A DNA stretch of 64,000 bases from Flavobacterium sp. N502536. GTDB taxonomy: Bacteria; Bacteroidota; Bacteroidia; Flavobacteriales; Flavobacteriaceae. Within the stretch, counting starts at the first letter, position 1; each line of letters begins with the position of its first letter. The notes beneath the pieces were generated by a model, which did not search any database, was not told the DNA's origin, and saw only the letters and a list, made by a program, of their open reading frames with translations. The stretch spans positions 3,844,001 to 3,908,000 of the forward strand of contig NZ_CP110011.1 in NCBI RefSeq assembly GCF_025947345.1. Reading direction: 5' to 3'. The position numbers and the translations under genes are program-made. This document shows, piece after piece, positions 1 to 15,007 of the stretch.

Positions 1-2
1 AT

Positions 3-167
3 AAAACCACACGGGAACAAGTTTTAAGCCGAATGCAAATGCAATGGAATGATGAAAAACGAATTTCTTTAAGCAATTTTGTTATTAATAACAGTAATCT
101 TAAAATTGCTAAAGAAGAAGTTGTTAAAATTCTTAAAATTTTAAATATAAAACAAAATCAGTCTTAA
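3..167 (+). CDS. coaE: Dephospho-CoA kinase, C-terminal fragment
   Basis: Open frame entering from the left edge and stopping at TAA 165-167, leaving about 54 codons. The residues (TREQVLSRMQMQW..., then FVINN and a final amphipathic helix) match the C-terminal part of dephospho-CoA kinase, where an R..R...Q stretch and a V-I-N-N segment precede the last helix. CoaE phosphorylates dephospho-CoA on the ribose 3' hydroxyl, the last step of coenzyme A synthesis, in the cytoplasm. The Walker A region lies outside the window, so the assignment rests on the tail alone. It is followed 59 bases later by a sensor kinase on the same strand. Confidence 0.72.
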   Translation, partial: KTTREQVLSRMQMQWNDEKRISLSNFVINNSNLKIAKEEVVKILKILNIKQNQS

Positions 168-213
168 ATGTTAATATTTGGTTAATGTATTATTTAGTAT
201 ATTGTTAAAATAT

Positions 214-221
214 TAATTTTG
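214..221 (+). promoter_or_regulatory. -7 promoter box TAATTTTG before the sensor kinase
   Basis: TAATTTTG fits the Bacteroidota -7 consensus TAnnTTTG. Only five bases separate it from the ATG at 227, so a transcript starting at the usual distance would begin at or next to the start codon (leaderless or nearly so). No convincing -33 box at ideal spacing was seen. Confidence 0.4.
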
Positions 222-226
222 TTTCG

Positions 227-1813
227 ATGAATAAATTATTTTTTAGATTACTTGTTTTATTGATGAGTTTGTCCTTAATAGGGATAATTCTGGTTCAGGT
301 ATATTGGTTTAATTCTTCGTTCAAGAATAACGATGAGCAGTTTAAATACCATGTTACTCAGGTAATTGGCAATGTGGCAGACAAGCTCGAACAGCAGGAA
401 GAGTATAGTTTTTACGATAAATACAACCGCATCAAAGACAGTACCGGTAAAACACCTAAAAAAGAAGATTTACTTCAGGTTTTTTACATTCAGAGAAACG
501 CAAAAACAAACAAGACAATAGTTTATTCCAATACGCTTACATCTGAAGATTATGATATCAGCGGCTCGATTTTTAATAAAAAATTCAGCAGCGAAAGATT
601 TAAAAACTTCAGTTCAAAAAGAGTTACAGAAGTATACAATAACAACAACAATATCGATAATAATACTTTAGGACAAAGTATTATCCCTGATTTAAAAATC
701 GAAAAATCAGGAAGTCTGGATATCTTAAACAAAGTGCAGCAGCAAATTCAATACAAAGATATTGCTTCACTGACACCGATAGAAGGGCGAATAACAAAGG
801 ATAAACTTCAAAAACTCTTAAAAAAGGAACTGGAAGAATATGGTGTAAAAACCAAATTTGAATATGGTGTTCTTAACAATGGTCTTGCGACAAAAGTAAG
901 ATCTGATGGATTTCATTACGATAAAGATGCAAGTTACCACGTGCCAATTTATACGGATAATGAGGGAAATAGTAAATACGAATTGTTTCTTACGTTCCCA
1001 CATAAAAAGAAATTCTTACTGTCTGAATTATTAAGTATTACAATACTGTCAATAATTTTCACATTAATCATTATAGTTGCGTACACCAGTGCATTAAACC
1101 AATTGTTGCGTCAGAAGCATATTTCTGAAATCAAAACCGATTTTATAAATAATATGACGCATGAGTTTAAAACTCCCATAGCGACAATTAATCTGGCACT
1201 TGATGCCATTAAGAATCCTAAGATAATCGAAGACAAAGAGAAAGTATATCGCTATCTTCAGATGATTCGGGATGAAAATAAAAGAATGCATGCTCAGGTA
1301 GAAAACGTTCTTCGTATCTCTAAATTAGAAAAAAGAGAATTAGATATTACAAAAGAACCTACTGCGATTCATGATATCATTGATGATGCAATCGAACATG
1401 TAAATTTAATTTTGGAGGACAGACAAGGAACTGTAGTGAAGCATTTTAATGCGGCAAGAACAACGAGTCTGATCAACGAGGTGCATTTTACAAATGTATT
1501 AGTGAATATTTTAGAAAATGCCATAAAATATTCTCCGGGTAACCCTGAAATAGAAATTTTTACAGAAAATGTCAAAGACATGATTCTGATAAAAGTAAAA
1601 GATAATGGTCTTGGTATGAGTAAAGTAGCTCAAAAGAGAGTTTTTGAGAAGTTTTACAGAGAACATACAGGAGATTTACATAATGTGAAAGGACACGGTT
1701 TAGGTCTGGCTTATGTAAAAAGAATAGTAGAAGATCATAATGGTCAAGTATATGTTGAAAGCGAGAAAGGAAAAGGTAGCACCTTTATAATAAAAATACC
1801 ATTAATAAATTAA
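227..1813 (+). CDS. Membrane sensor histidine kinase (RprX-like)
   Basis: 528-residue class I histidine kinase. An N-terminal membrane helix (about residues 5-28) and a second helix (about 268-292) enclose a roughly 240-residue extracytoplasmic sensor region with no recognised fold. Then follow the dimerisation/phosphoacceptor motif NNMTHEFKTPIA with the phospho-His at residue 312, and an HATPase domain with N box (NILENAIKYS), DNGLGM, FEKFYRE and GHGLGLAYVK. It autophosphorylates and passes phosphate to the regulator encoded three bases downstream (stop 1811-1813, next ATG 1817). The pair resembles Bacteroides RprX/RprY in general architecture; the signal sensed cannot be read from sequence. 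Confidence 0.92.
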   Translation: MNKLFFRLLVLLMSLSLIGIILVQVYWFNSSFKNNDEQFKYHVTQVIGNVADKLEQQEEYSFYDKYNRIKDSTGKTPKKEDLLQVFYIQRNAKTNKTIVYSNTLTSEDYDISGSIFNKKFSSERFKNFSSKRVTEVYNNNNNIDNNTLGQSIIPDLKIEKSGSLDILNKVQQQIQYKDIASLTPIEGRITKDKLQKLLKKELEEYGVKTKFEYGVLNNGLATKVRSDGFHYDKDASYHVPIYTDNEGNSKYELFLTFPHKKKFLLSELLSITILSIIFTLIIIVAYTSALNQLLRQKHISEIKTDFINNMTHEFKTPIATINLALDAIKNPKIIEDKEKVYRYLQMIRDENKRMHAQVENVLRISKLEKRELDITKEPTAIHDIIDDAIEHVNLILEDRQGTVVKHFNAARTTSLINEVHFTNVLVNILENAIKYSPGNPEIEIFTENVKDMILIKVKDNGLGMSKVAQKRVFEKFYREHTGDLHNVKGHGLGLAYVKRIVEDHNGQVYVESEKGKGSTFIIKIPLIN

Positions 1814-1816
1814 AAT

Positions 1817-2533
1817 ATGGAAAATAATAACAAAAGAATACTTTTAGTAGAAGATGACCTTAATTTTGGGGCAGTTCTTAAAGATTATCTAATGTTAAAT
1901 GACTTTGAAGTTACTTTAGCTAAAAACGGTATGGAAGGTTTCGAAAAATTCAAGAAAGATGTATACGATTTGTGTATTCTTGATGTAATGATGCCTTATA
2001 AAGATGGTTATACTTTAGCCAAAGAAATTAGAGAGAAGAACAGCGAAGTGCCAATTATCTTCTTAACGGCTAAGTCTATGAAAGAGGATGTATTGAAAGG
2101 GTACAAAGCCGGTGCTGATGATTATTTGAATAAACCTTTTGATTCAGAAGTTTTATTGATGAAAATTAAAGCGATCATTCAGAGAAAATCTGCTGATACA
2201 AAAGCAGAACAAGTACAGTTTGAATTTAACATTGGTAAATTCCATTTAAACTCAAAACTAAGATTCTTGACTTTCCAGGATGAAGAGCCAATTAAATTGT
2301 CTCCAAAAGAGAATGAATTGCTTAAAATGTTGATTCTTCATGAAAATGACTTAATGCCAAGAGAATTAGCTTTAACTAAAATCTGGAGAGACGATAACTA
2401 TTTTACATCAAGAAGTATGGACGTTTACATCGCCAAACTTAGAAAATACCTAAAAGCTGATGAAGATGTTGAAATCTTAAACATTCACGGAGAAGGTTTC
2501 AGACTAGTTGTTAAAAGTAAAGTTGCAGAATAA
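1817..2533 (+). CDS. OmpR-family response regulator (RprY-like)
   Basis: 238 residues: an N-terminal receiver domain (acidic pair ED-D at 12-14, phospho-acceptor Asp56 in LCILDVMMP, Lys in NKPFDS) and a C-terminal winged-helix DNA-binding domain ending in the IHGEGFRL hairpin. It is the cognate regulator of the preceding kinase, translationally close (three-base gap), and closes the operon: a strong terminator follows 30 bases after the stop. The N-terminal wording LVEDDLNFG...LKDYL is the type seen in RprY-like regulators of Bacteroidota. Target genes are unknown. Confidence 0.93.
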   Translation: MENNNKRILLVEDDLNFGAVLKDYLMLNDFEVTLAKNGMEGFEKFKKDVYDLCILDVMMPYKDGYTLAKEIREKNSEVPIIFLTAKSMKEDVLKGYKAGADDYLNKPFDSEVLLMKIKAIIQRKSADTKAEQVQFEFNIGKFHLNSKLRFLTFQDEEPIKLSPKENELLKMLILHENDLMPRELALTKIWRDDNYFTSRSMDVYIAKLRKYLKADEDVEILNIHGEGFRLVVKSKVAE

Positions 2534-2565
2534 CAAAAAATATAACCAAACAAAAAAATATTAGA

Positions 2566-2590
2566 GCCCTGAGAAATCAGGGCTTTTTTT
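2566..2590 (+). terminator. Rho-independent terminator after the two-component operon
   Basis: Perfect 7-bp stem GCCCTGA/TCAGGGC with loop GAAA followed directly by seven T. Confidence 0.9.
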
Positions 2591-2677
2591 ATGGAGTAAT
2601 TTGTCTTGCAACGCTACAGAAAGATTTGATATGGTTCGGATGCGAATTATGAATTAAATTAGGATTCGAAAATGAAA

Positions 2678-2828
2678 CGCTGATGATACGGATTCGCCAA
2701 ACGAAAACGCGGATTAACGCAGATTTTTAAGTTTTATGTGATGCAGAGTAATTTATTGTCATAACTTTTTACCCATTAAAAATCCGTTTTAATCAGCGTT
2801 TTCGCGAAGCGAATCTGTATCATCCGCG
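2678..2828. repeat. Dispersed inverted-repeat element, copy 1 (MITE/REP-like)
   Basis: Two arms of about 53 bp (2678-2730 and 2776-2828) are imperfect inverted repeats around a ~45-bp centre. Both contain GATTCGC, CGAAAACGC and an A/T tail (ATTTTTAA). Each arm also has a small internal palindrome of the TTCGC...GCGAA kind. The same words recur at 34137-34685 (around a GxxExxY gene) and at 55071-55216. It lies between a terminator and an unrelated promoter and contains no ORF. The rest of 2591-2976 shows nothing recognisable. Confidence 0.75.
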
Positions 2829-2976
2829 TATTATTTCTTTGCGATTGACTAAATATTCAAAAAAAATAATAGTAAAGTGTTGTTTTTTATCTTTTTGATT
2901 TTGAGCTTTCTATCTTCTTTTTTGGTTCTTGAAAGAATAAGAATAAAATTTTTGTAATGATTTTTCTTAAAATAAA

Positions 2977-3009
2977 TTTGGAAAATCAAAAAAGTATTCT
3001 GAATATTTG
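2977..3009 (+). promoter_or_regulatory. Promoter of the leader/RNA-repair operon
   Basis: -33 box TTTG at 2977-2980 and -7 box AATATTTG at 3002-3009 (one mismatch to TAnnTTTG), separated by 21 bases, inside the 17-23 range usual for Bacteroidota. The predicted start is near 3016, ahead of the leader ORF at 3050. Confidence 0.5.
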
Positions 3010-3049
3010 CAGACGAAAAAAATAATAACCCTTTAAAAACGAAGAAAAA

Positions 3050-3133
3050 ATGTTTGTATTTACATCTACATCACAGAGCTTCACATCAAATGAATTTGAT
3101 GCAGCACTTCTTCGTGGCTTATTTCGATCCTAG
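3050..3133 (+). CDS. 27-residue leader ORF ahead of an attenuator
   Basis: ATG at 3050 preceded by the A-rich start context typical of this genome (GAAGAAAAAA), stop TAG at 3131-3133. The product starts MFVFTSTSQSF and ends LLRGLFRS; it is rich in Ser/Thr/Phe and has no membrane segment or known motif. It holds a perfect 7-bp hairpin (CATCAAA 3084-3090, TTTGATG 3095-3101). Its last codons (3110-3120) are complementary to the 5' arm of the terminator just downstream. Position and pairing suggest a regulatory leader peptide. A small independent protein gene with its own terminator is the alternative. Confidence 0.5.
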   Translation: MFVFTSTSQSFTSNEFDAALLRGLFRS

Positions 3134-3163
3134 AAATATACTTTTAGATATATAAAGCCCGAA
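3110..3163 (+). promoter_or_regulatory. Possible antiterminator pairing
   Basis: CTTCGTGGCTT (3110-3120) can pair with AAGCCCGAAG (3154-3163 region, the 5' arm of the following terminator) over ten base pairs with one bulged U. That pairing is mutually exclusive with the terminator. Because 3110-3120 lies inside the leader ORF, a ribosome finishing the leader would block it and favour termination. Read from sequence; the regulatory role is inference. Confidence 0.45.
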
Positions 3164-3190
3164 GACATTTTGTTTCGGGCTTTTTTTTAT
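3154..3190 (+). terminator. Terminator or attenuator upstream of the RtcB operon
   Basis: Stem AAAGCCCGAA pairing with TTTCGGGC(TT), loop of about nine bases, then a run of eight T. It lies about 100 bases before the next ATG (3292), so it either ends a small transcript or attenuates the operon behind it. The stretch 3191-3291 shows no clear second promoter. Confidence 0.8.
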
Positions 3191-3291
3191 TCTAGACACT
3201 TCAAATTTTCCCGAAAATCGATTTTACTTATCCTTCATGGATAAAATGTTAAGCCTGTTTTGGCTGTTAATTTAATGCACTATAATTTTTA

Positions 3292-4038
3292 ATGCAAAAT
3301 TATACGGTAGAGGAGTATGCTTTGTGCGCTCGTCTTAAAAGTAAAAGAAAGAAAAAAAGATTAGTAAAGGAAGATTTTGAAAAACACCTGATTCAGTTAA
3401 GAAAACTTGAAAAAAAGCTTTGGGAAAAACGGAGAGATTTACCTCTTGTTCCACTAGAGATCCCTTACCAAAAGGGATGGCAGCGTAATTTTATACTGAG
3501 AGAGGATGTGGCAAGATCGAGTGAAGCTTCATTTTACAAAAACTTATTGGAAAAAATAAATACCTGGCAGTTCTCTTCTGAAAAATCTTTTAAAAGAAAG
3601 AAAAAGAGAAAAAGAAGAAATGTTTATACCGAGAAGTTACAAACTGTAAAAGAATTTTCAGAGTGGGAGTGGAGAAGTCCAAAATTAGAATTAACCGAGA
3701 AAGAAAAAGCACATTTTTATAAACGCGAACGCTGGTGCAGCAATTTTAAGCGATATAAAATTCATTACGTTTTTAATGAGCCGTGGCGCTATGTACTTCG
3801 TGTTAGCCCGTATATGATAACACATACGAAGCTGGTTGATTCAGATTTGGAAAGCGAAATTCAGCTACTCGACAATCGCATTACTAATCTTAATTTGAGA
3901 CATAAGATAAACAAATTAGTAGATGGTTTTTCGCATCGTTGGAGTTACTATGAAAGTGAAAATCCAAAAGAGAAAAACCCAATTAAAAATAAAAGTCTGG
4001 AAGTATTGTATAAGCAATATCTGGACGAAATGATATAA
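3292..4038 (+). CDS. Uncharacterised highly basic protein of an RtcB operon
   Basis: 248 residues, no family recognised. There are two strongly basic clusters (KSKRKKKR near residue 17 and KRKKKRKRR near residue 103), many aromatic residues and helical, charged segments. There is no signal peptide or membrane helix, so it should be cytosolic. The basic patches suggest nucleic-acid binding, possibly RNA or ribosome, but that is inference. The stop is followed after three bases by the rtcB ATG, which makes co-transcription and translational coupling likely. It lies behind the attenuator-like leader. It is a candidate accessory factor of the repair operon. Confidence 0.7.
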   Translation: MQNYTVEEYALCARLKSKRKKKRLVKEDFEKHLIQLRKLEKKLWEKRRDLPLVPLEIPYQKGWQRNFILREDVARSSEASFYKNLLEKINTWQFSSEKSFKRKKKRKRRNVYTEKLQTVKEFSEWEWRSPKLELTEKEKAHFYKRERWCSNFKRYKIHYVFNEPWRYVLRVSPYMITHTKLVDSDLESEIQLLDNRITNLNLRHKINKLVDGFSHRWSYYESENPKEKNPIKNKSLEVLYKQYLDEMI

Positions 4039-4041
4039 ATC

Positions 4042-5433
4042 ATGGGAAATAAATTATCTGGAAAAGACCTGATTAAATTAGGGTTTCCAAAAAACAATTC
4101 AATAAATATCGCCTTAGGGCAGATCAACAGATATAGAAAAAGGGAGAAAAAAGAATCTATCCTGACAGAAGCTAAAGATGTATTGTTACATCCGGAAAAG
4201 TATGAAGGCAACGGAACCTGGGGTAAAGTAGCTGAAGGTTTGATCAAACCGGTTCAGGTAAGAATGCATCAGTTGAAGACAACAAGAGTTCCTTTTAAAA
4301 TTTTTGGAGAAAATGAGATTGACCAACAGGCAAAATTTCAATTGTATGATTCGTTAAAACTGCCTATTTCGGTAGCCGGAGCATTGATGCCGGATGCACA
4401 TTCGGGTTACGGATTGCCAATTGGAGGGGTTTTAGCGACCGATAATGCTGTAATTCCGTACGGAGTTGGAGTGGATATCGGATGCAGAATGAGCCTTTCT
4501 ATTTTTGATTTGCCGGCTTCGTATTTTAAAGGCAAGGAACACCAGTTGGAAGCAATTTTGAAAGACAATACCAAGTTTGGAATGTATGAAACTCATGCTT
4601 CAAGAGTCGATCATGATGTTTTTTATAAAAGCGAATTTCAGGATATTCCATTGTTAAAGAATCTTTTGCCGAAGGCCTACAAGCAATTGGGAAGTTCTGG
4701 CGGAGGAAACCATTTTGTAGAATTCGGAATTGCTAAAATTGAAAATCCGGAGAACGAATGGAAGCTCGAAAAAGGAGAATATTTCGCCGTTCTTTCGCAC
4801 AGCGGTTCCAGAGGATTAGGCGCAAACATTGCAAAACATTATACCTATCTGGCCACAAAACAATGTCCGTTACCAAAAAATGTTCAGCATTTGGCCTGGT
4901 TGGATTTAAATACGCATGACGGTCAGGAATACTGGCTGGCTATGAATTTAGCAGGAGAGTATGCAAAAGCCTGTCATGATGATATTCATCGACGAATTGC
5001 CAAAGCAATTGGAAAAAGAGTAGTGGTAACCATCGAAAATCATCACAATTTTGCCTGGAAAGAAATGGTAAACGGTCAGGAATGTATTGTACATAGAAAA
5101 GGTGCAACGCCTGCCGCAGCAGGCCAATTGGGAATTATTCCCGGTTCGATGACGGCGCCCGGCTACATTGTAAAAGGCAAGGGAAATACGGAAAGCTTAA
5201 ACTCTGCTTCGCATGGCGCAGGGCGTTTGTTTTCAAGAGCGAAGTGTAAAAGTACCTTCACTCAAAGTGAGATTAAAAAGGTGTTAAAAGCCAATGATGT
5301 GACCTTAATTGGAGGAAATATTGACGAAGCGCCTATGGCGTATAAAGACATTACAAAAGTGATGGCAAATCAAAGTGATCTGGTGGAAGTGCTTGGAACT
5401 TTCACGCCAAAGATCGTTAGAATGGACCGATAA
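4042..5433 (+). CDS. rtcB: RtcB-family RNA ligase
   Basis: 463 residues. RtcB joins RNA 2',3'-cyclic phosphate or 3'-phosphate ends to 5'-OH ends using GTP and Mn2+. Visible signatures: PDAHSGYGLPIGG near residue 116, the metal-site Cys148 in GVGVDIGCRM, GGGNHFVE near 232, SHSGSRG near 253, and the guanylylated-His region VHRKGATPA with His351. The C-terminus has SHGAGR and GGNIDEAPMAYKDI. Length fits the shorter bacterial RtcB forms. The partner PrfH two genes on identifies this as the ribosome-repair type (called RtcB2 in published RtcB2-PrfH work) rather than the E. coli rtcBA context. No RtcA cyclase is nearby. Confidence 0.93.
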   Translation: MGNKLSGKDLIKLGFPKNNSINIALGQINRYRKREKKESILTEAKDVLLHPEKYEGNGTWGKVAEGLIKPVQVRMHQLKTTRVPFKIFGENEIDQQAKFQLYDSLKLPISVAGALMPDAHSGYGLPIGGVLATDNAVIPYGVGVDIGCRMSLSIFDLPASYFKGKEHQLEAILKDNTKFGMYETHASRVDHDVFYKSEFQDIPLLKNLLPKAYKQLGSSGGGNHFVEFGIAKIENPENEWKLEKGEYFAVLSHSGSRGLGANIAKHYTYLATKQCPLPKNVQHLAWLDLNTHDGQEYWLAMNLAGEYAKACHDDIHRRIAKAIGKRVVVTIENHHNFAWKEMVNGQECIVHRKGATPAAAGQLGIIPGSMTAPGYIVKGKGNTESLNSASHGAGRLFSRAKCKSTFTQSEIKKVLKANDVTLIGGNIDEAPMAYKDITKVMANQSDLVEVLGTFTPKIVRMDR

Positions 5434-5446
5434 AAAGATAAAGAGT

Positions 5447-6058
5447 ATGAAAAGATTTCAGGATGAGAATAAGTTTTTAGAAAGTTTTTTACATGAGGTT
5501 TTAGTGCAGTGTCCGAAATGTGATGCTCAAGCTAAAGTTAAAAATAAACTTTCAGAAGAATGCAAATGCGGGCATTGTTATACTAAAGTTTTGGAGTGTA
5601 AACATTGCTTTTATAAGCTTGACAAGCCCATTTACCAATACATTGCTTATGGTAAGGCCTATTGCAATCAGTGTTATGAAAAATATGAATTTAAATCGCA
5701 GTTATTAAAAGAAAAGCCGGAAAAGTATAAAGCGAAATGTCCGCATTGTAATTTTCAGGAAGAGTGGAAACCAAAAGTTGAAGAGGTTTTGCAAAATTCA
5801 AATCGTAACGACGGTTTAGTGAAAGAACAATGGTATAATTTGCCGCTTTGGTTTCAAATAGAAGTAGATAAACATATCTTCTGGGCCTATAATAAGCAGC
5901 ATATGGAGTATTTAGAACGGTATATCGGAGCAACGCTAAGGGAACGAAATCCAGGAATGAATTTCGGATCGAGTTTGGTGGCCCGTTTACCAAAATTTGT
6001 AAAAGAAGCGAAGAACAGAGAAAAGCTTCTTAAAATATTAGAGAAATGGAAAAAATAA
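5447..6058 (+). CDS. Uncharacterised protein with five CxxC zinc-binding pairs
   Basis: 203 residues starting at ATG 5447. An in-frame extension upstream would run into rtcB, so the ATG 13 bases after the rtcB stop is preferred. CxxC pairs lie at 22/25, 41/44 (with Cys39), 51/54, 73/76 and 98/101, which looks like two or more zinc ribbons or knuckles. A charged, helical C-terminal half ends in basic residues. No named family recognised. The gene overlaps the start of prfH by 13 bases, a sign of tight coupling. Its position between rtcB and prfH suggests an RNA- or ribosome-binding role in the same response; that is inference. Confidence 0.75.
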
Positions 6059-6735
6059 TTCAGATAACAGCGGGTCGCGGACCGGCAGAATGCACCTGGG
6101 TAGTGGCTCAGGTGCTTAAAAAAGTTTTGGACGAAGCAGAGGAACAACAATTAGAAACAACTTTGCTGCAGCGAGAAGTTGGGCAGGAAAACGGAACAGT
6201 AGAAACCGCTACCATCGCTGTAAAAGGGAAAGATGCTGCCCGATTTGCTGATTCCTGGATAGGAACGATTCAATGGATTGGTCAAAGCCAGTTTAGGAAA
6301 ATGCACAAGCGAAAAAACTGGTTTATTGGTGTTTTTGAGATTGAACCACAAAAAAATGTATCAATTTCTGAAAGCGATATTCAGTATCAGGCCATGCGCA
6401 GTTCCGGAGCAGGCGGGCAACACGTAAACAAAGTGAGTTCGGCAATCCGCGCGACACATTTGCCAACAGGAATTACGGTTGTTGCTATGGACAGCCGTTC
6501 GCAGCACCAAAACAAAAAACTGGCAACAGAACGATTATTAAAAAAGCTAGAAGACGAAACCTTACAGCAACTTAAAAACCATGTTGGAAAACAATGGGAA
6601 AATCAGCTCAACATTCAGCGGGGCAATCCGATTAGAGTTTTTTCAGGAACTGACTTTAAAAAGAACAAGGCAGAGAAAAGTTACAAAGGAACACGTCAGA
6701 AACTTAAAACCGATTTACGAAATGAGCATAATTAA
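6046..6735 (+). CDS. prfH: Peptide chain release factor-like protein PrfH
   Basis: 229 residues, much shorter than RF1/RF2 because the codon-recognition domain 2 is reduced. The N-terminal ITAGRGPAE...WVVAQVL is typical of RF-H. The catalytic GGQ is at 123-125 in [12 protein letters not shown], followed by the RF hallmark TGI and a basic tail. Published work on RtcB2-PrfH pairs shows PrfH releasing peptides from ribosomes whose 16S decoding centre has been cut, so that the ligase can re-seal the RNA. Here it is the last gene of the coupled operon (13-base overlap with the CxxC gene). No strong terminator follows immediately. Confidence 0.93.
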
Positions 6736-6813
6736 AAAGTTGGTCGCAAAAAAAAAATGATTATATGCGAATTATAGGTGACCAAAAAAAAACAATAAAT
6801 ATCGACACATAAC

Positions 6814-7350
6814 ATGAAAGCAATAGATAAATACCTTTTTCAGGCGTTGGACAGTTATCCGTATTCATTAGAAGAAACTATTGAATCTTTGGATTATGCC
6901 TTTTCCTATGATGCTAAAAACACAATGGTTTTGTGCTTGTACGGAAGAATTCAGTCAGAACAATTATGGAATTACGAAGAGGCAAAAATCTATTTTCAGG
7001 AAGCCCTGACGATTAACATTCATGCACTCGAAGTATATCCGCACTATATTCAGACTTTAATTTTAAATGAAGATTTTGAAGAAGCGCAAAAATTAATCGA
7101 TTTTGCTTTAACTATAAAAGGAATAAACAAATCTGAAATTTTTGTGAAGAAAGGAATTCTTTATGAAGCGCAGCAAGAATTTCAATTGGCACTAAAAGAA
7201 ATTAAAAAGGCGAAACTTTGTACGTTACAATTTGTTTTTGAATCCGATATTGTTGAAGTGGAGAAAAGAATTAAAGGCAAGATTGAGTTGACGCAAAAGA
7301 AAAAGAAAGCTGAAAAAACGAAAAAAGATTCGAAGAAGAAAGCAAAGTAA
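6814..7350 (+). CDS. TPR-like repeat protein with lysine-rich tail
   Basis: 178 residues with at least two tetratricopeptide-type helical repeats (LYGRI...YEEAKIYFQEALTIN and ...FVKKGILYEAQQEFQLALKEIKKAK). A strongly basic C-terminal tail is made largely of Lys, with Ser, Thr and Glu, over the last 25 residues or so. No signal peptide. It starts 78 bases after prfH on the same strand and is closed by its own terminator, so it could be a fifth gene of the repair transcript or an independent one. A protein-protein adaptor role is all that can be inferred. Confidence 0.75.
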   Translation: MKAIDKYLFQALDSYPYSLEETIESLDYAFSYDAKNTMVLCLYGRIQSEQLWNYEEAKIYFQEALTINIHALEVYPHYIQTLILNEDFEEAQKLIDFALTIKGINKSEIFVKKGILYEAQQEFQLALKEIKKAKLCTLQFVFESDIVEVEKRIKGKIELTQKKKKAEKTKKDSKKKAK

Positions 7351-7365
7351 TCTTCCTATAAAGAA

Positions 7366-7394
7366 AAACGAGGCGATTATGCCTCGTTTCTTTT
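7366..7394. terminator. Hairpin between convergent genes
   Basis: Stem AAACGAGGC/GCCTCGTTT with loop GATTAT followed by TCTTTT. It serves the TPR gene and may also work for the convergent thioesterase gene. Confidence 0.75.
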
Positions 7395-7454
7395 ATCAGG
7401 AATTCACAGAATTACCACGAATTTTAAACTTTTATTTTTTTTTTTTGGAGTATC

Positions 7455-8201
7455 TTATTTCCAGTGTAACTCTAAAGCAAAACAAGTTTTCTCCTGTTTT
7501 GTAATGCTGAACGTTGCCTTAGTGTGATTGTCATCTTCGCTCTCATGGATGATGACTTTATCTTTTAGCGACAGTTCCTTCATAAAATTCATTTCAAAGC
7601 TTTTAACCTCTTGTTTAAGAATTCTTTTCTCTTCTACATGATCAAGGCACCATTCTAAATATTTGACATTATTAACGTGATTTACAATGTCCAGATCCGA
7701 GAGGTAAACTGTTTTTTCAAAAACCGCTTCTTTTTCGTGGTTGATGTTTATTTTTGAAAAACCTTCAGTAGTGGCACGTTTTTCGGGGTACAATTCAAAA
7801 TGTTGGTAAGGTAAAGCCAAAGCTTCGGGACGTCGTAATTGTGTATTAAAAACAGCCCAGTACGTTTCGCAGCCTACTATTTTTTTTCCGTTTACATGCA
7901 TTTCTAAAGCACGAACAGAACGAGAGTTTTCTAAACTGTTGATCCAGGTTTTTACCGTTACAACATCTTGCCATTTCGGTAAAGCAGTAATTTCAACACG
8001 CATGCGGCTTAATACCCAGGCCTGATGAAACTCCTGCATATCAAAAAAGCTAATGCCTCCGGCTTCAGAATGCGCAGCAGCCGTCAATTGCAGAATATTA
8101 CATAAGTCAGTATACTTTAGAAAACCATTTGGTGTACATTGTGTAAAATTGATTTCCCAGTCTTTGCTTAAGACAGAAGTAAAATTTGGAGATATTGGCA
8201 T
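7455..8201 (-). CDS. Acyl-ACP thioesterase (FatA/FatB-type)
   Basis: 248 residues forming a double hot-dog thioesterase. The first hot-dog has the L-T-A-A-A-H-S-E-A-G-G helix and WVLSRMRVEI strand. The second carries DLDIVNHVNNVKYLEWCLD, the N...H...E catalytic region of acyl-ACP thioesterases. It hydrolyses acyl-ACP to release fatty acid in the cytoplasm. Length matches the bacterial family. It lies downstream of miaA on the same strand (63-base gap), possibly in one transcript. Confidence 0.85.
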   Translation of the reverse strand: MPISPNFTSVLSKDWEINFTQCTPNGFLKYTDLCNILQLTAAAHSEAGGISFFDMQEFHQAWVLSRMRVEITALPKWQDVVTVKTWINSLENSRSVRALEMHVNGKKIVGCETYWAVFNTQLRRPEALALPYQHFELYPEKRATTEGFSKININHEKEAVFEKTVYLSDLDIVNHVNNVKYLEWCLDHVEEKRILKQEVKSFEMNFMKELSLKDKVIIHESEDDNHTKATFSITKQEKTCFALELHWK

Positions 8202-8213
8202 TGCTGAATTTTA

Positions 8214-8242
8214 AATTTTAGATTGTTGATTTTAGATTTTTC
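8214..8242. repeat. Short 8-11 bp word array between thioesterase and miaA
   Basis: TTTTAAATTTTAGATT and GATTTTAGATTTTT words repeat in tandem. It belongs to the intergenic short-period arrays seen throughout the window. Confidence 0.4.
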
Positions 8243-8264
8243 TATCAGAGAAAAGAAACCGATT

Positions 8265-9185
8265 TTACTTTAGAAGATTTTCTATGTAACTTATGATTTC
8301 GTTTCGATCTGTCGCATAATCAAACCATTTTGTGTCTTCATTTCGTTTGAACCAGGTCAGTTGTCTTTTAGAGAAACGTCTGGTGTTTTTTTTGATTTCT
8401 TCGATGGCAAAAGGCAGCGAAAATTCTCCGTCAAAATAACTAAATAATTCTCTATAACCGACCGTTTGTAACGCATTTAACGCTTTGTTGGGATATAGCG
8501 CTTTGGCTTCTTCCAATAATCCCTCCTTCAGCATCAGATCTACACGTTGATTGATGCGGTTATAGATTACGGGTCTGTCGGCTTCTAAACCAATTAGAAC
8601 AGGAGTAAAATTTCGGTTGTTTTTCTTCTGATTTAAAAAAGAAGAGTAGGGCTTTTGAGTTCCGATACACACTTCTGTAAAACGCATCATTCTTTGCGGA
8701 TTTTGAAGCGTTTGCGGGTTTTCTATGGTCAACCTCTGATAATAATCGGGATCAAGATTTTTTAACTGATCCTGCAAATAAGTAATACCAAGCTTTTCGT
8801 AGTTAGCGTTTATTTCAGAACGTACTTCAGGATCAATTTCCGGAAATTCATCGAATCCTTTTAGAATGGCATCAACATATAGTCCTGAACCGCCAATGAG
8901 AATAGCGAAGTCATTCTTTGCAAACAATTCTTCTAATTTTAAAAGTGCTTCTTTTTCGTAATCCCCAACGGTGTAATTTTCGAAAATAGATTTGTTCTGT
9001 ATAAAATGATGTGTGGCAGATTGCAGTTCTTCGGGAGTAGGGACTGCCGTACCAATTGTCATTTCTTTAAAAAACTGACGACTGTCGCAAGAGATTATCT
9101 CACAATTAAAATGTTGTGCCAAAGCAATGCTCAAAGCTGTTTTGCCTATTGCTGTTGGTCCGACGATGGTAATTAGATATTTCAT
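8265..9185 (-). CDS. miaA: tRNA dimethylallyltransferase MiaA
   Basis: 306 residues. It adds a dimethylallyl group to N6 of A37 in tRNAs that read codons beginning with U. The P-loop GPTAIGKTAL is near residue 8, followed by DSRQFF, IGGSGLYVDAI near residue 98 and, towards the C-terminus, QTVGYRELF and TRRFSKRQLTWFKR, all standard for MiaA. Length is typical. A second gene of the same modification, miaE, is at 62.7 kb, so the organism probably makes a hydroxylated isopentenyl-adenosine derivative. Confidence 0.96.
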   Translation of the reverse strand: MKYLITIVGPTAIGKTALSIALAQHFNCEIISCDSRQFFKEMTIGTAVPTPEELQSATHHFIQNKSIFENYTVGDYEKEALLKLEELFAKNDFAILIGGSGLYVDAILKGFDEFPEIDPEVRSEINANYEKLGITYLQDQLKNLDPDYYQRLTIENPQTLQNPQRMMRFTEVCIGTQKPYSSFLNQKKNNRNFTPVLIGLEADRPVIYNRINQRVDLMLKEGLLEEAKALYPNKALNALQTVGYRELFSYFDGEFSLPFAIEEIKKNTRRFSKRQLTWFKRNEDTKWFDYATDRNEIISYIENLLK

Positions 9186-9260
9186 ATTTGGGAGTCTTTA
9201 CGGTTGCAAAAACCTTAGACTTGTATGGATTAAAGTAAGGATTATGAAGCCCTTTCTGAA

Positions 9261-10100
9261 TTAATTGTTAGGTAATTTTGTTCCGCATTCAAAACAATAT
9301 TGAGCATGATCAAAATGCACCTGAGAGCGGCACTTTGTGCACGTTTTTTTGCTGCTTACGACACTGTTTTTCAGGCTGCTTTTTGCAAACTCGGCAGTTA
9401 CGATTCCGGTTGGAACAGCTATGATTCCGTAACCCAAAATCATAACAAAAGCGGCAATAAATTGTCCGAGAGGGGTCTGAGGAGAAATATCGCCATAACC
9501 CACCGTGGTCAAAGTAACAATTGTCCAGTAAATACTCATCGGAATACTTGTAAAGCCGGATTCTTTACCTTCGACCAAATACATGACCGAACCAATTATT
9601 ATGGTGCTGATCAGTACAAAATAAATAAAAACGAGAATTTTCTCTTTACTGGCTTCAATGGCTTCCCGTAGCTGAACAGACTGATGGGAGATTTGCGGAA
9701 TATGCAGGATTTTGAATAATCTGAAAAAACGCAGAGCTCTTATGATCGACAGCACACTTGCCCCCGGGAAAAAAATGGATAAGTACATCGGTAATACCGC
9801 CATCAGATCGATAATTCCGTAAAAACTAAAAATATATCTGACTGGTTTTTGAATCGAAATGATTCGCAGTACATACTCAATGGTAAAAAATACGGTGATA
9901 ACCCATTCGCAAGCAATAAGCTGAGAGTGGTATTTTTGATTGATTCCCTGAACGGTTTCCATCATAATCAAAACAACACTAAGCAGAATCAATCCAAGGA
10001 GTACCAGATCAAACATTCTTCCCAAAAACGTATCCGTTCCATAAAGGATGATTTTGATTCTTTCCCGGAAGATTTCGTATTTGGATTTTGTTTTTTTCAT
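9261..10100 (-). CDS. Voltage-gated-type potassium channel with C-terminal zinc ribbon
   Basis: 279 residues counted from ATG at 10098-10100; an in-frame GTG two codons earlier is the alternative. Six membrane helices: S1-S3, an S4-like segment with spaced Arg (RALRFFRLFKI), S5, a pore loop with the K+ selectivity filter TVGYGD and S6. A compact C-terminal Cys4 module (CTKC...CFEC) resembles a zinc ribbon. The family (Ion_trans) forms tetrameric cation channels in the inner membrane. The metal-binding tail is unusual beside the canonical 6TM core and could be a regulatory or assembly module. Confidence 0.88.
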   Translation of the reverse strand: MKKTKSKYEIFRERIKIILYGTDTFLGRMFDLVLLGLILLSVVLIMMETVQGINQKYHSQLIACEWVITVFFTIEYVLRIISIQKPVRYIFSFYGIIDLMAVLPMYLSIFFPGASVLSIIRALRFFRLFKILHIPQISHQSVQLREAIEASKEKILVFIYFVLISTIIIGSVMYLVEGKESGFTSIPMSIYWTIVTLTTVGYGDISPQTPLGQFIAAFVMILGYGIIAVPTGIVTAEFAKSSLKNSVVSSKKTCTKCRSQVHFDHAQYCFECGTKLPNN

Positions 10101-10130
10101 CTCCACGAAGATAATGAAAGTTTAGCAGTG

Positions 10131-11492
10131 TTAAAAATGTAGTATCTTCAGCGATTTGCTTTTTCGGATGTAGTTTTGAATGATATTCTTGACATCGCGA
10201 TTGTGCTGCATTGGAATCAGAATGTTTTTCAGAATCTCGATATTGGTAATCTGGTAGTTCAAATCGTAGAAGGCATACCCTTTGTAAAGACCATTTTCGA
10301 TTAAAATAGCGCTTCTTTCATTGACATTTCGGCCTCTGTCGAGTAAAATCATGCTTTTATTTTCGAAACTATTTTCAGAAATAAACTGCTGTACGCGGGC
10401 ATTGTAAATCTCAGGAGTTACTTCTTCAATACAGGCACCGTCACACTCTTTGATTTTGTATTGAAAACATTCTTTTTTGGTTTGATACAGTCCTGTTAGT
10501 TTTTGGCACAAATGGTATTTTGCGGTAAACCTGAAAAGAGCGTTTTTACCTTCCTGCAAAGTAGCAAAGGAGGTGATCTCTTTTTTACGGCCATCGGCTT
10601 TTTCGAGCTTTAAATTCAGGTAGCCATTGGCATCTTTCTCTGCATACAAAGCATATTGAAAGATGGTTTTTCGTTGTGAACGATTGTATCTCGGGCGGTT
10701 TATTTTTATTTCTTCGCTTTCTTTTAAAAGAGCAATTAATTCGCTTCCGGTTTCATCATAAGTTATGGTGAAAACTTCGGCCTGTATTTTTTTACTTTTG
10801 GTGGTAATTCCGGTAAAGTGCTGATTGACTCTTTTCTTTATATTTTGGCTTTTTCCAATGTAAATAAGAGTCCCACCTTCATTGTAAATATAATAAACAC
10901 CCGTTTTTGCAGGCATTTGAGCTAATATGTCCAGAAATTTTGGAGCAATTCCTTTTTCTACCTCCAGTTTTATAAAATCTTTTACAATGGTTTTTTCCAG
11001 ATCTTTTTCTAAAAGCATCTTGAAGAGCTTGGTTGTCGCCATTGCATCACCGCTGGCGCGATGTCTGTCTGCCATTGGAATCCCAAGTGCTCTTACCAGT
11101 TTTCCTAAACTATAGGAAGGCTGATCCGGAATTAATTTCTTGGCAAGTTCAACTGTACATAGTGTTTTGGCTTCAAAATTGTAACCTAAACGTCTGAATT
11201 CCGTGCGTAAAATTCGGTAATCAAAAGAGGCGTTATGCGCTACAATAATGCAATCAGTGGTGATTTCGATAATTCGTTTCGCAACTTCAAAAAACTTAGG
11301 AGCAGAGCGCAACATAGCATTATTGATTCCGGTTAACTTCACCACAAAGGGCTGAATCGGAATTTCAGGATTCACCAGACTAATGAATTGGTCAATTACT
11401 TCATGGCCATCAAATTTATAAATGGCGATTTCGGTAATTCCTTCCTCATTAAACTGGCCTCCGGTGGTTTCTATGTCTAGTATTGCGTACAA
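10131..11492 (-). CDS. DnaQ-like exonuclease fused to a GIY-YIG (UvrC/Cho-like) domain
   Basis: 453 residues. The N-terminal DEDDh 3'-5' exonuclease (LDIETTGG near residue 5, HNASFDYRIL near 93, HRAS.DA near 143) is followed by a GIY-YIG endonuclease module (TGVYYIYNEGGTLIYIGKS near residue 195). A long C-terminal region has Cys residues (CQKLTG, CFQYKIKECDGAC) like UvrC relatives. It is known in Bacteroidota as an epsilon-like exonuclease with a UvrC-type nuclease, presumably acting in DNA repair. The exonuclease motif begins so close to the start that only TTG at 11490-11492 fits; no ATG is available, which makes the start uncertain. Confidence 0.86.
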   Translation of the reverse strand: MYAILDIETTGGQFNEEGITEIAIYKFDGHEVIDQFISLVNPEIPIQPFVVKLTGINNAMLRSAPKFFEVAKRIIEITTDCIIVAHNASFDYRILRTEFRRLGYNFEAKTLCTVELAKKLIPDQPSYSLGKLVRALGIPMADRHRASGDAMATTKLFKMLLEKDLEKTIVKDFIKLEVEKGIAPKFLDILAQMPAKTGVYYIYNEGGTLIYIGKSQNIKKRVNQHFTGITTKSKKIQAEVFTITYDETGSELIALLKESEEIKINRPRYNRSQRKTIFQYALYAEKDANGYLNLKLEKADGRKKEITSFATLQEGKNALFRFTAKYHLCQKLTGLYQTKKECFQYKIKECDGACIEEVTPEIYNARVQQFISENSFENKSMILLDRGRNVNERSAILIENGLYKGYAFYDLNYQITNIEILKNILIPMQHNRDVKNIIQNYIRKSKSLKILHF

Positions 11493-11530
11493 ATTTAGTA
11501 TTCAGTCTCAGTTTTTAGTAATCGGTTTAT

Positions 11531-11562
11531 AATCTACAATCGTTAATCTACAATCTAAAATC
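11531..11562. repeat. AATCTAC-word array before yggS
   Basis: AATCTACAATCGTTAATCTA and further CAATCTAAAATC words repeat with 7-8 bp spacing; another member of the intergenic short-period arrays. Confidence 0.45.
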
Positions 11563-11565
11563 AAG

Positions 11566-12225
11566 TTATCTTCCTCCGAAGATACTGCTTCCAATGCGAA
11601 CCATTGTGCTTCCGCATGTTATGGCAAGCTGATAATCGCCCGACATTCCCATGGAAATAGTATTCAGATTACCGTTTTCAATTTTTAGCTTTTCTATCGA
11701 ATCAAAAATAGATTTTAAATGTGTAAATTCCTTCTTAATCTGGTTCTGATCTTCTGTAAAAGTTGCCATCCCCATTAAGCCCAAGATACGTATGTTTTTC
11801 ATTTCTTTGAACTCTGATGAAGATAATAATTCATTTAATTCGTTTTCATCCAGTCCAAACTTGGTTTCTTCTTCAGCGATATGTATTTGAAGCAGGCAAT
11901 CAATAACCCGATTGTTTTTTACGGCTTGTTTATTGATTTCCTGCAAGAGTTTCAAACTATCAACACCATGAATCAGGCTTACAAAAGGCGCCATAAATTT
12001 GACTTTATTCGACTGTACATGACCAATCATGTGCCATTGAATGTCTTTCGGCATTTGCTCGTATTTGTCAACCATTTCCTGGATTTTATTTTCTCCAAAA
12101 ATACGCTGACCGGCATCATAAGCCTGTATTAAATCAGAGACAGGTTTGGTTTTAGAAACGGCAACTAACGTTACATTTTCAGGCAAACTCGCTTTGATTG
12201 TATTTAAATTCGATGCTATCGACAT
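11566..12225 (-). CDS. YggS/PLPBP-family pyridoxal phosphate-binding protein
   Basis: 219 residues of the PLP homeostasis family: a TIM-barrel-like protein with the PLP lysine in VAVSKTKP, FGENKIQE, WHMIGHVQSNK, and the C-terminal MGMSGDYQLAI...G.T.VRIGS.IFG. The family controls free PLP and amino-acid pools and has no known enzymatic activity of its own. It lies 12 bases downstream of the hydroxyacyl-CoA dehydrogenase gene, so the two are probably co-transcribed. Confidence 0.93.
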   Translation of the reverse strand: MSIASNLNTIKASLPENVTLVAVSKTKPVSDLIQAYDAGQRIFGENKIQEMVDKYEQMPKDIQWHMIGHVQSNKVKFMAPFVSLIHGVDSLKLLQEINKQAVKNNRVIDCLLQIHIAEEETKFGLDENELNELLSSSEFKEMKNIRILGLMGMATFTEDQNQIKKEFTHLKSIFDSIEKLKIENGNLNTISMGMSGDYQLAITCGSTMVRIGSSIFGGR

Positions 12226-12237
12226 GGTGTTTTTTTT

Positions 12238-13131
12238 TTAGGAAAGAATAAATTGCTTAGAGATTTTCTCTGCTTTTTTACTTTCGCTGTAGTCGTAAAA
12301 ACCTTCACCAGATTTCACGCCTAATTTTCCTGCTCTCACCATATTGACTAATAAAGGGCAAGGTGCATATTTTGGGTTTTTGAAGCCGTCGTACATTACA
12401 TTTAAAATGGCAAGACAAACATCAAGACCAATAAAATCAGCCAATTGAAGAGGTCCCATAGGGTGTCCCATTCCTAACTTCATTACCGTATCAATTTCGT
12501 AAACTCCCGCAACTTTGTTGTACAAGGTTTCGATCGCTTCGTTAAGCATAGGCATTAAAATTCGGTTTGCCACAAAACCAGGATAGTCGTTTACTTCAAC
12601 AGGAACTTTACCTAGTTTTACTGATAAATCCATGATAGTTTTGGTTACTTCATCGCTGGTATTGTATCCACGAATGATTTCGACCAATTTCATGATAGGC
12701 ACCGGATTCATAAAGTGCATCCCAATAACTCTTTCAGGATGTGCTACAACAGCTCCAATTTGGGTAATAGAAATGGAAGAAGTATTGGTTGCCAGAATCG
12801 TATTGTGAGAGCAAGCCTCGTTTAGTTGCTTGAAAATATTAAGTTTTAGCTCTACATTTTCAGTAGCAGCTTCAACTACTAAATCTACCCCAACAACACC
12901 ATCTTTAATATCGGTATATGTGATAATATTTGTGATTGTTTTGGTAACTTCTTCCTGAGTAATAGTTCCTTTAGAAAGCATTCGGTCCAGATTGGCAGCA
13001 ATAGTTGCCATTCCTTTGTCTAATGATTTTTCTGAAACGTCAATTAGTTTTACAACAAAACCACTTTGTGCAAATGTATGAGCAATTCCGTTACCCATTG
13101 TTCCTGCACCAATTACAGCTATAGTCTTCAT
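12238..13131 (-). CDS. 3-hydroxybutyryl-CoA / 3-hydroxyacyl-CoA dehydrogenase
   Basis: 297 residues. The N-terminal Rossmann fold has GAGTMGNGIAHTFAQ, the NAD-binding Asp in LIDVSE, EAATEN and the catalytic region (ATNTSSISIT, GMHFMNPVPIMKLVE). The C-terminal helical domain has GFVANRILMPMLNEAI and the DGF/CPLLVNMV tail. It oxidises (S)-3-hydroxyacyl-CoA with NAD+, or runs in reverse with NADPH. Stand-alone size corresponds to Hbd rather than the FadB fusion. No other beta-oxidation gene is nearby. Confidence 0.92.
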   Translation of the reverse strand: MKTIAVIGAGTMGNGIAHTFAQSGFVVKLIDVSEKSLDKGMATIAANLDRMLSKGTITQEEVTKTITNIITYTDIKDGVVGVDLVVEAATENVELKLNIFKQLNEACSHNTILATNTSSISITQIGAVVAHPERVIGMHFMNPVPIMKLVEIIRGYNTSDEVTKTIMDLSVKLGKVPVEVNDYPGFVANRILMPMLNEAIETLYNKVAGVYEIDTVMKLGMGHPMGPLQLADFIGLDVCLAILNVMYDGFKNPKYAPCPLLVNMVRAGKLGVKSGEGFYDYSESKKAEKISKQFILS

Positions 13132-13157
13132 TTAAATTTGATATTATATTTATGATT

Positions 13158-13199
13158 TTAGCCACGAGTTCACAAATTAATTCATGAACTCGTGGCTAA
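13158..13199. terminator. Long perfect hairpin between dehydrogenase and oxidoreductase genes
   Basis: A 15-bp perfect stem (13158-13172 TTAGCCACGAGTTCA with 13185-13199) around a 12-base loop. It lies just downstream of the Gfo/Idh/MocA stop on the minus strand and is flanked by T-rich sequence, so it may terminate that gene. The GCCAC...GTGGC ends also resemble the hairpins at 36536 and 59572. Confidence 0.55.
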
Positions 13200-13222
13200 T
13201 TTATTTTTTAAAAGCGTTCAAT

Positions 13223-14188: not shown

Positions 14189-14282
14189 GAGAATGTATTT
14201 TAAACAAAAATATAATTTATTTGTTGAAAGTAAAAGTTTAGCTGGGACAAAGTCGAAATTATTTAAACAAATTTAAATGTAT

Positions 14283-15005
14283 TTACAGACTTAACTTTTC
14301 TTTGAAGTTATTGGTTTGTCTTCTTGATATTTCTACTTTCACCTCTTTCGGGAGCTGTACAAGCAGATTACCACTAAACCAAGGGTCTATTTTAAGTATA
14401 TATTCTATATTAATAATTTGGTTTCGATTGGCCCGGAAGAAAAAATCATCGGGAAGTTTTTCTTCAATGTTGTTTAATGATTTATTAAGTATGGCCTTTT
14501 CATCCTGAAAAAAGATTCGGGTGTAATTGCCTTCAACTTCAAATAGAAAGATATCGGCAATTTTTACGAGCCAGCATTTTTCGCCATCGCGAATAAAAAT
14601 CTGGTTGTTTAGCGTCAGTTTCTTATTGTTTTTTTCTTCTTTTTCAATTAGATTTTGACTTACTTTTTCGATGGAATGCGCAAATCTTTTTGGGTTTATA
14701 GGTTTTAGTAAATAGTCTAATGCGTTGTATTCAAAAGATTTAATCGCATATTCATCAAATGCGGTTGTAAAAATTGTAATAGGAACTTTGTCAAGCATTT
14801 CTAACAGTTCGAAACCATCTTTTTCCGGCATATTGATGTCTAAAAAAAGCAAATCGGGTTGGGTTTCCTGTATTAATTTAAAGCCCGAATCTACATTTTC
14901 TGCTTCTCCTATAATTTCAATTTCACGATGATTTTTAATTAATTCTTTAAGCTCATTTCTGGCCAGTCGAGAATCTTCAACAATGACAGCTTTTATTTTT
15001 TTCAT
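14283..15005 (-). CDS. LytTR-family response regulator
   Basis: 240 residues: a receiver domain (KAVIVEDSRLARNEL, phospho-Asp in LLFLDINMPEKDG, Lys in YLLKPINPKRF) and a C-terminal LytTR DNA-binding domain (IADIFLFEVEGNYTRIFF, FFRANRNQIINIEYI). It binds direct-repeat DNA upstream of targets. It forms a pair with the sensor kinase two bases upstream on the minus strand. Confidence 0.93.
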   Translation of the reverse strand: MKKIKAVIVEDSRLARNELKELIKNHREIEIIGEAENVDSGFKLIQETQPDLLFLDINMPEKDGFELLEMLDKVPITIFTTAFDEYAIKSFEYNALDYLLKPINPKRFAHSIEKVSQNLIEKEEKNNKKLTLNNQIFIRDGEKCWLVKIADIFLFEVEGNYTRIFFQDEKAILNKSLNNIEEKLPDDFFFRANRNQIINIEYILKIDPWFSGNLLVQLPKEVKVEISRRQTNNFKEKLSL

Positions 15006-15007
15006 AC

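Follow-up and report, generated by a model that had tools for sequence, protein, structure and literature searches.

A putative ribosome-mediated attenuator precedes a predicted ribosome rescue and ribosomal RNA repair operon in Flavobacterium

Introduction

The RtcB2-PrfH operon of E. coli ATCC25922 has a reported role in protection from colicin E3 (PMC9223846), and a 2019 article describes genes that accrete to RFH-RtcB operons. They encode a TPR protein, a pol-beta nucleotidyltransferase, a protein in which one or two zinc ribbons are combined with a helical, positively charged C-terminal region, and a charged orphan for which no homologues were detected (PMC6514570). Section 2.4 of that article contains no biochemistry for these accretions and no leader or regulation. 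Among regulatory elements, the closest studied case that we found is the Listeria hflXr/rli80 attenuator, which precedes a ribosome-recycling gene and is induced by antibiotic-stalled ribosomes (PMC6310831), and leader-peptide attenuators lie upstream of amino-acid biosynthesis operons in Flavobacterium psychrophilum (PMC9723704).

Here we analyse a stretch of 64,000 nucleotides (nt) from Flavobacterium sp. N502536 (contig NZ_CP110011.1, positions 3,844,001 to 3,908,000, forward strand; hereafter the window), in which a short leader precedes five genes in the order P1-rtcB-ZR-prfH-TPR, P1 encoding a basic protein and ZR a protein rich in CxxC pairs. We consider it likely that these genes form a ribosome rescue and ribosomal RNA (rRNA) repair operon that is controlled by a ribosome-mediated transcription attenuator and induced by arrested translation. 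What this analysis adds is the attenuator, which would apply an established principle of regulation to an established repair operon in this lineage and context. Our search of the open-licence literature returned no description of an rtcB-prfH leader or of an inducer of rtcB-prfH operons in Bacteroidota (Flavobacteri, Bacteroidetes, rtcB and release factor are all absent from PMC2965389), and the leader offers a candidate answer to what induces these operons, for which we found no earlier account in that literature.

Compared with the described systems, the locus shares with the E. coli ATCC25922 operon the adjacency of rtcB and prfH and a PrfH equivalog, and differs from it in three extra genes, in the putative attenuator leader and in an RtcB that stays below the cut-off of the release_rtcB equivalog TIGR03073 (136.9 vs 271.8 bits), for which reason we do not name it RtcB2 (PMC9223846). 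Like hflXr/rli80, the leader combines a small open reading frame (ORF) with a predicted anti-antiterminator, antiterminator and intrinsic terminator; unlike hflXr/rli80, it has an antiterminator strand that is part of the ORF and an anti-antiterminator that immediately precedes the start codon, lacks the RLR motif, and stands before rRNA repair genes in Bacteroidota, and no shared sequence is claimed (PMC6310831). With the F. psychrophilum attenuators it would share the principle of leader-peptide attenuation and the genus, whereas prfH and rtcB are named 0 times in the text of that article (PMC9723704). Relative to the accretions of PMC6514570, we show that P1 tracks rtcB rather than prfH, and we count frequencies.

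Leader architecture and covariation

Comparison of 123 upstream regions, 114 of them distinct, revealed a block at window positions ~2950-3215 that was matched in up to 96, the rest of the intergenic region being mostly unmatched except immediately after the upstream gene. Three helices can form in this block (Table 1). The sequence ACGAAGAA (3039-3046) is complementary to TTCTTCGT (3108-3115), which gives helix 1:2; CTTCGTGGCTT (3110-3120), within the 27-codon ORF MFVFTSTSQSFTSNEFDAALLRGLFRS, is complementary to the 5' arm of the terminator, AAGCCCGAAG (3155-3164), which gives helix 2:3; and helix 3:4 is the terminator itself. The helices are mutually exclusive and the terminator lies before the first gene, P1, so that the leader (3039-3189) looks like a ribosome-mediated transcription attenuator. 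Bacteroidota promoters have a consensus at -33/-7. Promoter-like elements precede segment 1, and TTTG[CT] occurs 29-40 bases before it in 25 of 26 leaders, the exception being L153. Rfam gave no match at gathering score in window 1-16000. After the terminator (3190-3220) there is a conserved ATTCTAGACACTTC...CCCGAA, of which CCCGAA could pair with terminator segment 4.

To evaluate the helices we used a leader regular expression, written after inspecting sequences, that matched 112 of 142 upstream regions (129 distinct), together with the leaders of L016, L021, L061 and L105, which were added by hand; 30 leaders with pairwise identity under 88% made up the covariation alignments. Helix 3:4 was paired in 99.2% of 242 cells with 3 covarying pairs, helix 2:3 in 97.0% of 300 cells with 3 covarying pairs (a count that assumes a fixed bulge position and thereby under-counts L021), and helix 1:2 in 223 of 240 cells with four pairs showing compensatory changes. 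Double-change cells numbered 9, 9 and 11 for 3:4, 2:3 and 1:2, compared with shuffle means of 1.6, 2.0 and 2.1, and these counts were reached by 0/500, 0/500 and 0/5000 shuffles, respectively; counted as pairs instead of cells, double changes were at least as numerous in 2/500, 6/500 and 9/5000. When the strands were slid against each other, paired cells dropped to at most 62.8% for 3:4 and 59.3% for 2:3, although a slide of 2:3 by -2 likewise left double changes in three pairs (three cells). L021 provides the strongest single example: its four strands have all changed (CTGAAG, CTTCAGGACTT, AAGTCCGAAG, TTCGGAC) and pairing is kept; L020, which lies outside the training set of the covariance model described below, has the same four strands.

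Evidence for translation of the leader

The position of the ORF relative to segment 2 is conserved. The start codon lies 54, 57, 60 or 63 nt before segment 2, a multiple of three in all 30 leaders, and the ORF shares its frame with segment 2 throughout. This frame is open over the 18 codons upstream of segment 2 in 30/30, compared with 12 and 16 for the other two frames, and the stop codon falls seven codons after the segment 2 start in 28 leaders and six in two. Unlike this near-constant spacing, the distance from the stop codon to segment 3, where the terminator begins, varies from 22 to 35 nt. Together with the poor conservation of the peptide, these data fit a leader that works through where the ribosome stands rather than through the peptide it makes.

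Leaders of the erm and trp types work through stalling by the nascent peptide or at a codon run. The window leader could in the same way sense one drug or amino acid, in which case the operon would be a resistance or starvation response; some early codons and a C-terminal LRG are indeed conserved in the 27-codon leaders, and hflXr/rli80, a leader that senses drugs, has a similar architecture (PMC6310831). However, the peptide outside segment 2 differs widely among clades and codon positions vary about equally, while the conservation of LRG is explained by the base pairing of segment 2, because GGC and GGT switch synonymously with segment 3 and LQD or LRD appears where segment 3 differs (L019, L020, L101). 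A peptide- or codon-specific sensor is therefore, in our estimate, an unlikely explanation, and arrest of the ribosome as such is the reading that we develop below.

Distribution of the leader

We next searched genomes with R1, a covariance model that runs from segment 2 to the terminator, using for both genome scans stricter filters that lose weak matches. The window match is G000:C1:3847101-3847193 (window 3101-3193). Among 150 Flavobacterium genomes R1 matched 45 at E <= 5.2e-7, once per genome, with the next match at 1.5e-4; PrfH is found in 42 of the 150 (E <= 1e-40), and R1 is present in 42/42 of these, on the same contig and strand and upstream of prfH. The three remaining strong matches stand before P1-rtcB (G171), rtcB alone (G177) and the TPR gene alone (G226), loci that we read as operon remnants. 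Sixteen weaker matches fall between 1.5e-4 and 1e-3, and the four inspected ones adjoin unrelated genes. Since ~14 of the 42 PrfH-positive genomes gave training rows, the sensitivity within the genus is partly built in, whereas absence elsewhere is not.

Across 296 Bacteroidota genomes, of which 22 have PrfH at E <= 1e-45, R1 at E <= 1e-4 was found in 19/22 PrfH-positive vs 0/274 PrfH-negative genomes, and a targeted leader search added G354 (locus L101), bringing the former to 20/22. The Flavobacteriaceae sample has the leader at 7 of 8 PrfH loci (the window, L016 and L018-L022), the eighth, L017, being judged on 298 upstream bases only. Four loci outside the training set (L019, L020, L022 and L101) carry the leader at the operon, with ORF and segments read in each.

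The hairpin might be a mere terminator of the response-regulator gene that lies upstream on the same strand (1817-2533), with a fortuitous small ORF, and helix 3:4 taken alone does resemble any terminator. Against this, the operon keeps its leader at sites with other upstream genes (e.g. L048-L060, G177, G226), and covariation with the hairpin extends to segments 1 and 2, for which a simple terminator would have no use; we regard this explanation as very improbable compared with an attenuator that belongs to the operon. As for genomic context, many Flavobacterium have the operon at one fixed site, between a histidine-kinase/response-regulator pair (window 227-2533) and an opposite-strand gene (7455-8201); other species have it elsewhere, together with its leader.

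A variant arrangement is seen in L022 (7266-7362, G036), where the leader is directly 5' of prfH with no rtcB between; rtcB lies downstream of prfH-TPR in this locus and is distant (26.9% identity).

Folding and a proposed mechanism

To model the switch we folded the 30 leaders in transcription order, assuming a ribosome footprint of -14 to +15. When the RNA ended at segment 2, helix 1:2 had a median probability of 1.00. When it extended to segment 3, helix 2:3 had a median of 1.00 with a ribosome at codon 1 and of 0.07 with a ribosome at the ORF end. Taken together with the logic of hflXr/rli80, this leads us to propose induction by ribosomes that start the leader and do not move through it. 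Ribosomes that read the leader to its end would cover segment 2, the terminator would form and the operon would be off; a ribosome stalled at or soon after the start codon would mask segment 1 or part it from segment 2, and if 2:3 forms before segment 4 is transcribed, polymerase would pass and the operon would be on. Damaged or blocked ribosomes would thus switch on the genes whose products free them (PrfH) and reseal them (RtcB), and the presence of the leader before all 42 PrfH operons of the genus sample suggests that the inducer is failed translation of the leader ORF.

Ribosomes cut in the decoding centre are likely triggers of the leader. A fuller, self-sensing circuit, to which we give somewhat less than an even chance, would have such cut ribosomes start the leader, stall in its first codons and antiterminate PrfH and P1-RtcB, with P1 carrying RtcB to the broken ribosome. 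If true, the damaged machine itself would be the sensor for its own repair.

Several observations weigh against control of a repair operon by this leader. For helices 3:4 and 2:3, the number of further pair types did not exceed that in shuffles, 442 and 426 of 500 of which reached it, and the shuffle controls leave the relatedness among sequences in place. L016 and L099 break part of helix 1:2, and L022 has no GAAG-type segment 1. At the coding level, the ratio of nonsynonymous to synonymous substitution (dN/dS) for codons 2-20 of 74 distinct 27-codon ORFs is 0.72, vs 0.60 and 0.95 in shifted frames, and heterozygosity is flat over codon positions (0.244, 0.231, 0.254); since this dN/dS is weak and no better than that of a shifted frame, we claim no conservation of the peptide. 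The R1 scores of L101 and L022 (45.7 and 43.1 bits) are no better than those of unrelated terminators, so that these two leaders rest on position and reading, and neither R1 nor targeted searches found such a leader in the PrfH-positive genomes G285 (L102) and G387 (L098). In the folding of full-length RNA the terminator is the most stable structure in every modelled condition (medians 0.94-0.98), and the ON state must be kinetic because the terminator wins in all conditions once segment 4 exists. Naked RNA forms 1:2 first (1.00) and then prefers 2:3 once segment 3 exists (0.98), and its outcome is ambiguous because 2:3 can displace 1:2. Finally, searches of solved-structure sequences gave no match that assigns P1 or ZR a role.

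Genes of the operon

The preliminary description of this DNA had recognised four genes, P1, rtcB, ZR and prfH, as a tightly packed operon. Their coordinates, the three-base gap between the P1 end (4038) and the rtcB start (4042), the five CxxC pairs of ZR and the 13-base overlap of ZR, which sits between rtcB and prfH, with prfH are all borne out; the operon as described was incomplete, since the TPR gene and the upstream leader had been overlooked. Judging by the spacing, we propose that all five genes are co-transcribed and form a ribosome rescue and rRNA-repair operon.

Table 1. Features of the leader and operon in the window.
Feature	Positions	Strand	Description
Promoter-like elements	2977..3010	+	TTTG at 2977, TATTTGC at 3004
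Segment 1, putative anti-antiterminator strand	3039..3046	+	ACGAAGAA; just 5' of leader start codon; 8-bp pairing with 3108-3115
Leader ORF	3050..3133	+	27 codons, MFVFTSTSQSFTSNEFDAALLRGLFRS; frame shared with segment 2 in 30/30
Segment 2, putative antiterminator strand	3110..3120	+	CTTCGTGGCTT; leader codons 21-24, Leu-Arg-Gly-Leu; pairs with segment 3
Predicted intrinsic terminator	3155..3189	+	Segment 3 (3155-3164), loop, segment 4 (3173-3182), T-run to 3189
P1	3292..4038	+	Basic protein of 248 amino acids (aa); RtcB-linked
rtcB	4042..5433	+	RNA ligase RtcB family; Pfam RtcB PF01139, 280.6 bits vs cut-off 27
ZR	5447..6058	+	CxxC protein of 203 aa; five CxxC pairs; conserved C-terminal region
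prfH	6046..6735	+	Peptide chain release factor H; TIGR03072, 243.9 bits vs cut-off 166.65
TPR protein	6814..7350	+	178 aa, fifth gene; Pfam TPR_2, 28.3 bits vs cut-off 27

The Pfam RtcB domain begins at residue 101 of the window RtcB, which matches RtcB chains in a PDB sequence search. The nearest PrfH structure by sequence is PDB 9mor_A (E 2.2e-78), and the PrfH translation contains a GGQ peptide-release motif. No Pfam or NCBIfam model scores above its cut-off for P1 or ZR. P1 has no match among PDB sequences at E <= 10. ZR shows similarity to zinc-ribbon families below the Pfam cut-offs (Zn_ribbon_4 14.8 vs 30.3 bits, HypA 14.1 vs 28.9 bits) and weak PDB matches, mostly to zinc-binding proteins (best 2ctd_A, E 0.0013). 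PADLOC assigned no family to P1, RtcB, ZR, TPR or the nucleotidyltransferase-like protein of L016 described below, and its weak JAB match of PrfH (E 0.009) was judged to be chance. A search of the window for transfer RNA (tRNA) and transfer-messenger RNA returned none.

Both partner proteins had been presented in the preliminary description as unrecognised, which needs correction with respect to the literature: going by the text of PMC6514570, its zinc-ribbon and charged proteins would be ZR and P1 of the window. Since such accessory genes already appear in that 2019 article, little remains of the novelty that had been attributed to the two partners.

Association of P1 with rtcB

P1 is linked to PrfH-positive genomes far above chance. 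It is found in 17 of the 150 Flavobacterium genomes, in 16/42 PrfH-positive vs 1/108 others (Fisher p 1.7e-9), and in 9/22 PrfH-positive vs 0/274 other Bacteroidota genomes (p 1.2e-11), all 9 in the same neighbourhood. Among 120 Flavobacteriaceae genomes, one per genus, PrfH is over cut-off in 8 and P1 occurs in 3, each time beside rtcB-prfH. A plasmid search gave no P1 match.

Scanning named genomes with an alignment of P1 sequences gave 99 loci, of which 80 were kept (Flavobacterium, Pedobacter, Mucilaginibacter, Taibaiella, Chitinophaga and others) and 79 could be evaluated, the contig of L176 ending at P1. The neighbour count that the preliminary description had proposed for P1 thereby became available: rtcB, or a piece of it, directly follows P1 in 78/79 loci, the sole exception being L180 (Chitinophaga rupis), with P1 then prfH and no rtcB match in the locus. 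prfH is downstream in 71/79, and is broken in L134 and L167. Six loci have P1-rtcB without prfH, five in Pedobacter and one in Flavobacterium (L141, the same contig as G171), and their whole genomes have no PrfH match at E <= 1e-40; L186 also has no PrfH match, but its contig ends soon after rtcB, and the contig of L173 ends inside rtcB. Because of the 78/79 adjacency and the retention of P1-rtcB in genomes without prfH, we describe P1 as linked to RtcB rather than to PrfH. The earlier proposal that P1 belongs to the same response as rtcB-prfH is thus supported, with the correction that P1 follows RtcB.

P1 is strongly basic (isoelectric point 9.83; K+R = 23.4%), and since it is also tied to rtcB in gene order, our guess is that it may be an RNA- or ribosome-binding partner of RtcB, the leading guess for its role being RtcB delivery or rRNA binding. 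Alternatively, P1 could be a toxin or nuclease that causes the damage mended by RtcB, or it could be an unrelated gene that tight packing has kept in place, as its accessory status even in PrfH-positive Flavobacterium (16/42) and its disruption in G228 and G268 might suggest. Its position beside rtcB over several genera and its persistence with rtcB in the absence of prfH speak against both options, as does, weakly, the fact that we recognised no nuclease motif among its near-invariant residues; we hold them to be improbable next to an RtcB partner.

A diverged P1 subfamily (Tenacibaculum, Winogradskyella, Aquimarina and others) comprises 280 proteins found with four query sequences, 120 of them listed, and is seen beside rtcB in L016, L017 and L101. 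L101 (G354) has two diverged P1 copies in tandem before rtcB, with the leader between the two.

ZR, TPR and optional modules

ZR shows a different association. Full-length ZR is present in 10/150 Flavobacterium genomes and overlaps the prfH start in 10/10, and its invariant features are three CxxC pairs (C22/C25, C51/C54, C98/C101) together with the conserved C-terminal region. Shorter relatives (frames of 147-173 aa) lie away from prfH in 7/150 Flavobacterium genomes (G226, G150, G251, G206, G151, G230, G137), and ZR occurs in 2 of the 120 Flavobacteriaceae genomes, the G101 copy (205 aa) in a genome without PrfH over cut-off. The view that ZR takes part in the same response is supported by the full-length protein; in these seven Flavobacterium genomes and G101, relatives also occur away from prfH. 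We infer that ZR acts as a partner of PrfH, which separates the two partner proteins: P1 would go with RtcB, and ZR with PrfH.

The TPR gene is found directly after prfH on the same strand in 38/40 Flavobacterium PrfH loci (the window and L024-L062, a count that leaves out PrfH-positive genomes G139 and G268), the exceptions being L061 and L062, and the two genes overlap by 14 bases in 18 of the 38. The TPR protein may serve as a scaffold. The PrfH match is split over two frames in G268 and runs across a stop in G242.

Nine loci, L016 (5552-6097), L055, L100, L101, L105-L108 and L160, have between rtcB and prfH, with no ZR, a nucleotidyltransferase-like protein of ~180-200 aa that shares a conserved GGWAWHFMS...HKDID(I/V)FV motif; the similarity of the L016 copy to Pfam nucleotidyltransferases is below cut-offs. 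From the comparison of loci, the core in most Flavobacteriales loci seen is rtcB-prfH-TPR, to which P1 may be added at the front and either ZR or the nucleotidyltransferase in the interior. One genome also has an acyl-transferase-like protein between nucleotidyltransferase and prfH (L016:4599-5537; PF03417 50.7 bits, cut-off 23.2).

A PrfH match was present in 58 phage records; of the 20 that were listed, three carry annotation, and all three are named RF2/prfB. The two best matches listed (42.9% and 38.0% over 88% of the query), both from short unannotated records, could be real PrfH.

A different leader in sphingobacterial-type loci

A different conserved leader occurs upstream of P1/rtcB in 16 sphingobacterial-type loci (L164, L165, L170, L174, L188, L178, L185, L187, L190, L168, L191, L180, L169, L181, L098 and L102). 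Rfam, run on ten sphingobacterial-type loci, reported one tRNA and no match for this leader. Several copies contain a short ORF (such as MTERFYISSLFxAA), and ATATCGTCCCTT pairs long-range with AAGGGTATAT before a small hairpin; over the 16 sequences this pairing holds in 84.7% of cells, with 6 double-change cells vs 1.4 in shuffles.

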